Below, piece after piece: positions 42,509-46,283 of a DNA stretch of 64,000 bases. Location: contig CAMDSO010000007.1 of the NCBI GenBank assembly GCA_945906935.1, positions 1 to 64,000 on the forward strand, given 5' to 3'. Position numbers and translations under genes: made by a program. Below the pieces are notes generated by a model. The model was not told where the DNA came from and made no database searches. It saw only the letters and a program-made list of their open reading frames with translations. Within the stretch, counting starts at the first letter, position 1. Every line of letters begins with the position of its first letter. The DNA comes from Bordetella parapertussis. GTDB lineage: Bacteria > Pseudomonadota > Gammaproteobacteria > Burkholderiales > SG8-41.

Positions 42509-42622
42509 ATCGTGCGACAAGCTAGGTGCGTGAACGCAGCCAAGAGCAAGCAACAAGTCGTAAGCCCGCTCGTTAATGCCACGCCGCGGCTGACCCACGA
42601 CCGTAGCCGGCAGCCTCATCGC

Positions 42623-43585
42623 ATGCACAACTCCCTTTTTGCACTGGCACTGCTGGCATTGCCGTTCAGCGCACACGCCGAATACCCTGAGCGGGCGTTG
42701 CGTCTGGTGGTGCCCTTCCCGCCGGGTGGCGGCGTCGACATTCCAGCGCGCGCGATTGCGCCACCACTCGCAGAAATTCTCAAACAACCGGTGGTGGTTG
42801 AAAACCGCAGCGGTGCCGGCGGTTCGGTGGGAGCGGCGAGCGTCGCGCGCGCGACCGCCGACGGCTACACCATCCTGCTCGGTTCGAGCAGCACGCTCAG
42901 CGTCGCGCCCAGTCTGTATGGCAATCTAGCCTACCATCCGGTGCGTGATTTTGCGGCCATCAGCATGGTTGAACAAAAAGCCTATGTGCTCGTCGCGCAT
43001 CCCGCGCTGCCGGCAAAAAATGTTGCTGAGCTGCTGACATTGGCACGTCGCCAACCCACACGCATCACCATCGCCTCGTCCGGGGTGGGTAGCTCCAACC
43101 ACATGGTCGGCGAACTTATACAGCTCAGCACCGGCACGCGCTTTACGCATATTCCGTACAAGGGCAGCGCGCCGGCCATGATCGAACTGATGGGCGGACA
43201 GGTCGACCTGCATGTGGATCAGGTGATGTCGGCGATCAGTTATGTGCGTAGCGGCAAGGTCCGCGCGCTGGCGGTGACCAGCCGCGCCAAACGCTCGCCG
43301 CAACTGCCCGACACGCCGACCTTCGATGAAGCCGGTGTGAGCGGCTTTGAGGCCAGCGGCTTCACGGGCCTGGTCGCCCCGGCCGGCACGCCGCCGGAGG
43401 TCATCAACAAACTCAACGCCGCCATCCACCGCGTTCTGGCCCAACCGGCCATCCGCGATTTCATGACGGGACTCGGCAGCGACGTCGTGCCGGGCACCCC
43501 TGAGGAACTCGGCAACTATATTCGCACCGACCTCGCGCGCTGGACCGGCGTAGTGAAAAAAAGCGGCCTCAAACTCGATCCCTGA
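42623..43585 (+). CDS. Bug/TctC-family substrate-binding protein
   Basis: YPERALRLVVPFPPGGGVDIPARAIAPPLAEILKQPVVVENRSGAGGSVGAASVARATADGYTILLG. Confidence 0.94.
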   Translation: MHNSLFALALLALPFSAHAEYPERALRLVVPFPPGGGVDIPARAIAPPLAEILKQPVVVENRSGAGGSVGAASVARATADGYTILLGSSSTLSVAPSLYGNLAYHPVRDFAAISMVEQKAYVLVAHPALPAKNVAELLTLARRQPTRITIASSGVGSSNHMVGELIQLSTGTRFTHIPYKGSAPAMIELMGGQVDLHVDQVMSAISYVRSGKVRALAVTSRAKRSPQLPDTPTFDEAGVSGFEASGFTGLVAPAGTPPEVINKLNAAIHRVLAQPAIRDFMTGLGSDVVPGTPEELGNYIRTDLARWTGVVKKSGLKLDP

Positions 43586-44583: not shown

Positions 44584-45144
44584 TCATGGGGTTTTCGCCG
44601 CCAGCGAGGCCGCGAACTCACCTTGTTTGGCACTCAAGGTCTTCAGCCAGCGCTGGCCGCCAAAGGTAAAGCCGATCCAGTAGCCCAGCTCAACCAGTTC
44701 AGGTTCCGAAAACTCCGCGTGCAATTCAGCCCACATCGCATCATCGGCCTGCGCGGGATCGTACATGATGGCATCGGCGTAGCGCAGCGCGATTTTTTCG
44801 CGCGGCGTGAAGCGCGACGATGTGGCGTAGTTCATCAATTCGGACATTCTGTCGTTCTCATCCCGCGCCGACCGCGCGGTGCCCTGGTTGCTTCAGTAAG
44901 CGCATTCAATCGTATGGGCAATATAGGCACGTGTAAGCTCCTTGAGTTCGTGTTCAAGTACGCCCGCACCGCTGTCGAACAGCGTCTTGCGTGTCAGCGT
45001 GAATGAGCGCATGACATCGGGCTGATGCGCGCGAATGGCCTGATTTTCAGGGCCTGGCCGCCCTTCGGCGATGGCTTCGTCGAGCCACTTCTGAACGAGC
45101 GGGTCCTTTATACTTGCCGGATCGATATAGCTGATGCGTGCCAT
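44584..45144 (-). CDS. Carboxymuconolactone decarboxylase/AhpD-like protein with in-frame TGA (candidate Sec codon, CxxU)
   Basis: ORFs 45144-44893 and 44847-44584 are in one frame. The read-through is ...ELTRAYIAHTIECAY-[TGA]-SNQGTARSARDENDRMSELMNYATSSRFTPREKIALRYADAIMYDPAQADD..., with the TGA at the second Cys position of the family CxxC. RBS-like aggagaa before ATG. Confidence 0.7.
44863..44879 (-). promoter_or_regulatory. Candidate bSECIS-like hairpin downstream of in-frame TGA
   Basis: On the minus strand after TGA: AGCAACCAGGGCA-CCGCGC-GGTCG-GCGCGG-GATGAG. 6-bp GC stem and 5-nt loop starting GG; loop begins 20 nt after the TGA. Confidence 0.5.
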
Positions 45145-45272
45145 GACTGCTTCTCCTGTTTATGAATCCTTGTGATGAGTGCTATTGATAGCCTCTTGCT
45201 CCGGTCTTGAGGCCGCGTTAACCTTGTAGATCAATAAAAAATTTTTCGCAGCAGCATTCAACCGCGGTTTGC

Positions 45273-46283
45273 ATGAAAGAAAAAACAGTTATGCGGCGTA
45301 TACAAATTATCTTGCAATCGACCGTCCCGCTGCTTCTGCTGGCTGCGACTATACAACCCGCGGCAAGCGCTGCAGCGGCTGCCGATTATCCGAACCGTCC
45401 GATCCGCATGGTCGTGCCGCAAGGCATCGGCGCCTCCAATGACACAATGGCGCGCGTGCTGACGGTAAAACTCGGCGAAGTGCTCGGCCAACAGGTGGTC
45501 GTCGACAACCGGCCGGGTGCCGGCGGCATGATTGGCCTCGAAATCGCGTCGCATGCCGCAGCCGACGGCTACACCCTCCTCGGCACCGCTACCGCCATTC
45601 AGGTGATTTCTCCGCAGCTTTATAAAAAACTGTCGTTCGACCCGTTTCGCGATCTCACGCCAATCGCACTCTACGCGATCACGCAGAACGCGCTGACGGT
45701 AAATCCGTCGATGCCGGTAAAAACCGTCAGGGAATTCATTGCCGCCGCCAAGGCGGCGCCGGGCAAGCTCAACATGGCGTCTGCCGGTGCCGGCTCGCAA
45801 AGCCATCTCGCCGGTATGCAATTTGCGCTGCCGACTGGTATCGATGTCGTGCATATTCCCTACAAGGGCGGCGGCGCATCGGTTGCCGCGGTGGTCGCCA
45901 ACGAATCGCAGTTCACACTCACGCCGCTGCCCGCCGTCTACTCGTTCATCAAGTCCGGCCGCCTGCGTGTGCTGGCTACTGGCGGCGAAAAACGTTCGCC
46001 CCAATTGCCCGACGTGCCGACGGTTGCCGAAGCGGGTGTGCCGGGCTTTCAGTCCACCGGCTGGGCAGGACTGCTGGCGCCGCACGCAACCCCCGCGCCG
46101 ATTCTCGGCAAGGTTCACGCGGCACTGATCAAGGTGATGAACCAGCCCGATACGCGCGAACTGATCGAGCGCCAGGGAGCCGACCCGGTGACCAGCACGC
46201 CAGCCGAGTTCGGCCGCTTCATCCGCGAGGAGTGGGACCGCTTCGGGCAGGCCATCAAGGCGGCGAAAATCAAAGTCGAGTAG
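45273..46283 (+). CDS. Bug/TctC-family substrate-binding protein
   Basis: YPNRPIRMVVPQGIGASNDTMARVLTVKLGEVLGQQVVVDNRPGAGGMIGLEIASHAAADGYTLLG. Confidence 0.94.
   Translation: MKEKTVMRRIQIILQSTVPLLLLAATIQPAASAAAAADYPNRPIRMVVPQGIGASNDTMARVLTVKLGEVLGQQVVVDNRPGAGGMIGLEIASHAAADGYTLLGTATAIQVISPQLYKKLSFDPFRDLTPIALYAITQNALTVNPSMPVKTVREFIAAAKAAPGKLNMASAGAGSQSHLAGMQFALPTGIDVVHIPYKGGGASVAAVVANESQFTLTPLPAVYSFIKSGRLRVLATGGEKRSPQLPDVPTVAEAGVPGFQSTGWAGLLAPHATPAPILGKVHAALIKVMNQPDTRELIERQGADPVTSTPAEFGRFIREEWDRFGQAIKAAKIKVE

Follow-up and report, generated by a model that had tools for sequence, protein, structure and literature searches.

A predicted selenocysteine-encoding UGA in a CMD/AhpD-fold gene of an uncultured betaproteobacterium

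The window, the whole stretch of 64,000 nucleotides analysed here, belongs to contig 7 of an assembly that totals 4.64 Mb, at 97.5% completeness and 3.3% contamination; the host is an uncultured freshwater-type betaproteobacterium. On the minus strand of the window, positions 44584-45144 translate as a single frame with no indel, in which one TGA separates 83 codons from the next 102 and a second TGA ends the gene. The list of open reading frames splits this gene into 44893-45144 (83 aa) and 44584-44847 (87 aa), and the translation agrees with the initial annotation, which had described two same-frame ORFs parted by one TGA and a read-through protein of 186 amino acids. The N-terminus of this protein is MARISYIDP and the C-terminus LAAKTP, and the motif around the internal TGA reads IECAY-U-SNQG. 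TGA had also been taken for an ordinary stop elsewhere in the window, and it is the closing codon of 26 of the 53 long open frames there, ending the selenoprotein gene too. The features of the locus are:

44584..45144, minus strand: predicted AhpD/CMD-like selenoprotein gene, 186 codons plus stop, one UGA read through
45152..45157, minus strand: Shine-Dalgarno-like AGGAGA, 7 nt 5' of the ATG, read from the sequence
44893..44904, minus strand: codons of the CxxU redox motif, Cys81-Ala-Tyr-Sec84, from alignment A3
44893..44895, minus strand: predicted selenocysteine (Sec)-encoding UGA, codon 84, second CxxU position; TGA in 49 of 51 orthologues, TGC or TGT in two
44863..44879, minus strand: predicted bacterial SECIS hairpin, CCGCGC-GGUCG-GCGCGG, starting 13 nt after the UGA
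44869-44873, minus strand: apical loop of the hairpin by folding, beginning with GGU, 19 nt from the UGA
44584..44586, minus strand: true stop codon, TGA, from translation

Genes for TctC/Bug-type periplasmic receptors flank the gene at 42512-43585 and 45273-46283, the latter called by Pfam and the former by sequence likeness only. The neighbourhood was considered as a clue to function and rejected: its patatin-like, oxidoreductase and creatininase-like genes are common to the near relative L072, the TctC receptor and patatin genes are also found in L093, and the arrangement is not conserved in the Acidobacteria and Gammaproteobacteria loci viewed. All-against-all clustering of the neighbourhood ORFs was swamped by antisense frames.

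Among 299 related genomes, the window's own included, 29 full-length copies with 73-99% identity are found, each with exactly one TGA, every time between CxY and SNQG. A contig scan of GTDB genomes yields 51 full-length orthologue loci in Betaproteobacteria/Burkholderiales, Gammaproteobacteria, Rhodospirillaceae, Deltaproteobacteria, Acidobacteria and two other taxa, a taxonomy that is loose since the records are nearly all MAGs and names such as Bordetella parapertussis and Chitinophaga pinensis look mislabelled. The two sets overlap, with many genomes common to both, and the assemblies of about 50 relatives carry the same TGA. Codon 84 is TGA in 49 of the 51 orthologues (identity 56-93%) and a Cys codon in the other two, L117 from Acidimicrobiia (TGC) and L119 from bacterium Ww501 (TGT), where CTYCSNQG replaces CxYU. 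Selenoproteins are classically recognised by the exchange of Sec and Cys at one invariant position, and here a conserved in-frame UGA aligns with the Cys of the Cys forms, as is expected of a bacterial selenoprotein. Judged from these alignments, the conservation of TGA at codon 84 is far above chance. In a tree the two Cys forms group together, with neither their branching among the Sec clades nor the direction of the exchange fixed.

Within the 19 members of alignment A3, Cys81, Tyr83, Sec/Cys84, Gln87 and Gly88 are invariant. The TGA had been placed at the second Cys of a CxxC motif whose first Cys is kept, and Cys homologues do align at this position. The motif "ECxYC" named in the initial annotation needs a small correction: the Glu preceding the first Cys varies (ECGY, MSCGY, LNCDY), and the family motif is C-x-Y-U-x-x-Q-G.

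The downstream part of the gene is constrained as strongly as the upstream part. Across the window and its relatives in Betaproteobacteria, 29 sequences that form 406 pairs, the median pairwise dN/dS is 0.112 before the TGA and 0.118 after it, with many synonymous distances near saturation, so that the rise downstream of the TGA that would have indicated decay is not seen. Compared with the closest relative, L071, there are zero non-synonymous differences in codons 85-180 at a pS of 0.22. By these estimates the parts before and after the TGA are under equally strong purifying selection, and nothing suggests decay. In the relative G001 (L071, L124), pS against the window is 0.76 before the TGA and 0.22 after, and a second partial copy lies on another contig, which suggests recombination or duplication. 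Another relative has at L122 (G035:C37:62733-62987) what is apparently a truncated copy, the 3' part of the gene only, which directly follows an ABC-transporter-like ORF unrelated to it.

Bacterial SECIS elements are described as having a loop 16-37 nt from the UGA, a stem of 4-16 bp, a loop of 3-9 nt with an early G and a minimum free energy of -7.5 kcal/mol or lower (PMC13188914). The hairpin downstream of codon 84 lies within all these limits, with 6 bp, the 5-nt loop GGUCG at 19 nt from the UGA and -11.6 kcal/mol when folded alone; the fold energy at the hairpin is -13.2 to -13.5 kcal/mol (-13.5 for 45 nt). The rule discriminates weakly in this GC-rich DNA, where 187 of the 2068 TGAs of the window (9%) have a hairpin that passes, and the single-sequence folding z-score of -0.95 against shuffles is not decisive. 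Weak as it is from the rule alone, the case for the hairpin becomes strong when sequences are compared. Pairing is kept in 222 of 222 cells (100%) across 37 distinct sequences, among which three of the six base pairs have compensatory, double-sided changes. Seven such changes are observed against 0.3 expected in shuffles, and none of 500 shuffles reaches the observed covariation score. In L091, L095 and L099 the compensating change also replaces a residue that is conserved elsewhere (Arg to Gln, Arg to Leu and Ala to Val), so the pairing of the RNA seems to have been preserved at the protein's expense. The SECIS-like element for which the initial annotation had suggested a search is thus found downstream of the UGA, with compensatory changes. 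Gammaproteobacterial and alphaproteobacterial orthologues have a shorter and less stable hairpin (4-5 pairs, loop CGUGN) that folded alone falls slightly short of the energy limit, and no covariation is seen within this group. As for the Cys forms, L119 has no such hairpin and L117 has an unrelated one that passes the loose rule. A search of the locus with Rfam returns nothing meaningful, only a sub-threshold chance match to mir-1910.

The host has the machinery for decoding UGA as Sec. Adjacent genes on contig 149 encode SelB (427.8 bits against a cut-off of 242) and SelA (604.6 against 268). At the same end of that contig, both ARAGORN and the Rfam model (75.5 bits, gathering threshold 47) detect a tRNA-Sec with anticodon TCA. 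The gene for SelD (421.8 bits against a cut-off of 125) itself contains a single in-frame TGA. It falls in GGGUGCK, where SelD usually carries Sec, and the use of Sec by the host in this protein too is therefore very probable. All of selA, selB, selC and selD, as looked for in a selenoprotein host and proposed earlier as a check, are present. Between selB and the tRNA-Sec gene lies a thioredoxin-reductase-like FAD protein (Pyr_redox_2, CADC motif; L001:306-1208), a possible partner of the Sec system. Every one of the 29 related genomes with a full-length copy has selA, compared with 125 of the 299 overall; this co-occurrence is partly kinship, because among the 74 genomes of the host family 68 carry selA. 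In 14 of 17 more distant hosts selA is found at least in part, the host of the Cys form L119 included, and in three TGA-bearing MAGs it is not found, perhaps owing to incompleteness.

The AlphaFold model of the read-through protein is all-helical (pLDDT 82.3), with a predicted fold that spans both halves, in agreement with the CMD/AhpD-like architecture that had been proposed on either side of the TGA. All 26 PDB chains matched at E <= 0.001 have the CMD/AhpD fold, to which a profile search also points. The best matches are the debrominase Bmp8 (6ohj), 3c1l, AhpD of P. aeruginosa (7xw1) and 2prr, with TM scores of 0.72 to Bmp8 and 0.74 to 2prr. In the classical AhpD peroxidase, a Glu, the CxxC pair and a His at +4 form a proton relay. 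Glu69, 12 residues N-terminal to Cys81 as in AhpD-type proteins, and CxxU/C are invariant here, but the His at Sec+4 is replaced by Gly88 in 19 of 19 aligned members, and the protein departs in this respect from a classical AhpD. Since the Cys forms also have Gly88, the absence of His is not simply a consequence of Sec, and it makes peroxidase activity uncertain. A redox role through the predicted Sec-Cys pair is well supported by the alignment and the model, whereas the specific label "alkyl hydroperoxidase" is not supported for this selenoprotein.

Other explanations of the interrupted frame have to be set against these observations. Were the locus a pseudogene or a sequencing error, the TGA would be a nonsense mutation in a decaying gene, a history that the relative with just the 3' half of the gene (L122/G035) would fit. 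However, 49 orthologues spread over several classes and phyla have the same TGA, the sequences before and after it are under equal purifying selection and the hairpin covaries; this explanation, of negligible probability, is refuted by the conservation of both the TGA and the sequence downstream. It is also very improbable that the UGA acts as a stop and leaves a functional 83-residue protein, perhaps with a separately started C-terminal piece of 87 residues. UGA is a normal stop in the host genome and an in-frame ATG follows at 44847, but the conserved SNQG core sits between the TGA and this ATG, the Cys orthologues are uninterrupted and the predicted fold covers both halves. Bacteria commonly read through UGA to some extent, and the codon might be decoded independently of selenium, by near-cognate insertion of Trp or Cys or by a suppressor tRNA. 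Next to no weight is given to this, as the full Sec machinery is present, the UGA aligns with an active-site Cys and the hairpin lies at the spacing required by SelB, maintained by compensatory changes.

On the sequence evidence, 44584-45144 is almost certainly a Sec-encoding selenoprotein gene (CxxU), as the initial annotation had proposed: conserved UGA, Sec/Cys exchange, selection, SECIS covariation, Sec machinery and predicted fold all support it. The chemistry of the protein is much less certain. A ribosome would meet the UGA at codon 84, where SelB, tRNA-Sec and the downstream hairpin would insert selenocysteine, and translation would continue until the genuine stop, the UGA at codon 187. 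The product would be a 186-residue, all-helical thiol-selenol oxidoreductase of the CMD/AhpD fold, in which the Sec84 selenolate and the Cys81 thiol form the CxxU redox pair. Most likely, Sec84 would attack an oxidised or electrophilic substrate, which may be a peroxide or, if Bmp8 is a guide, some other small molecule that can be reduced; Cys81 would then resolve the intermediate as a selenenyl-sulfide, to be reduced by a cellular thiol system. We infer this order of attack, the substrate and the reductant.

CMD/AhpD selenoproteins with CxxU are already known, as the initial annotation had stated. AhpD-like/CMD-domain forms were reported in 2005 from the Sargasso Sea (PMC1088965), the GOS survey found AhpD-like 1 (COG2128) and AhpD-like 2 (pfam02627) to be abundant, with 299 and 70 genes (PMC2398784), and such proteins are included in a 2026 catalogue (PMC13188914). 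The marine proteins likewise belong to the CMD/AhpD superfamily with Sec second in CxxU, and have a SECIS directly downstream and Cys homologues at the Sec position. The present subfamily differs in its C-x-Y-U-x-x-Q-G motif, in lacking the AhpD His and in occurring mainly in Burkholderiales MAGs, a distinction that follows the descriptions of the marine sets, which come from metagenomes. NF053654 (GroundWater_YciW, "YciW-related (seleno)protein") is the best NCBIfam match of all 19 members tested, aligned to residues 1-159 of 186; at 52.1 bits against a cut-off of 310 it is, by sequence score, a related group of which the present protein is no member. The AhpD core/TIGR01926 enzymes (PDB 2prr, 2oyo, 6k40; PA0269, 2ijc) share the fold, which is predicted here, the position of CxxC and the Glu 12 residues before the first Cys. 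By contrast, the present protein has Sec for Cys, lacks the His at +4 and reaches 34.8 bits, below the cut-off of 81.8. The tetrabromopyrrole debrominase Bmp8 (PDB 6ohi, 6ohj), also of CMD fold, is the best full-length structural match, but identity is 18% and its halogenated substrate has no sign of a counterpart here. Under the NCBIfam cut-offs and just under that of Pfam CMD (PF02627; 22.9 bits, gathering threshold 23, residues 42-124), the subfamily appears to be unmodelled, although this kind of selenoprotein is known.

At least four further CMD-fold genes of the host have a TGA at the second motif position, which suggests that CMD selenoproteins are expanded in its lineage:

L051 (G000:C186:2965-3537): CMD-fold gene, CHYU-GEMN, TGA in the motif
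L127 (C126:1807-2211): CMD-fold gene, CNYU-IAHN, TGA in the motif, AhpD His at +4 kept
L130 (C228:2036-2461): CMD-fold gene, CKYU-IKHN, TGA in the motif, AhpD His at +4 kept
L131 (C4:78453-78743): CMD-fold gene, CQYU-MAHT, TGA in the motif, AhpD His at +4 kept

In relatives (L058, G171:C17:2661-3869; L066, L069, L070), Sec CMD genes have a second CMD gene in tandem, of Cys or Cys-less type, as if forming pairs; CEFC is found beside CTYU, and CSYU beside a copy with DRYF at the motif. Tentatively, the gene might represent a distinct, mostly-Sec CMD subfamily that lacks the His relay and has a chemistry other than that of classical peroxide reduction (for example reductive, as in Bmp8), as one of five or more selenoproteins of CMD fold in uncultured Burkholderiales, but this is rather doubtful.

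Standard gene callers split such genes or label them broken, so that annotations of uncultured freshwater and groundwater betaproteobacteria are likely to miss part of the selenoproteome. As a test case the family is clean: a single active-site position is occupied by Sec in nearly every member and by Cys in two, base pairing in a compact SECIS has apparently altered the protein sequence, and the AhpD His is absent from the CMD active site.
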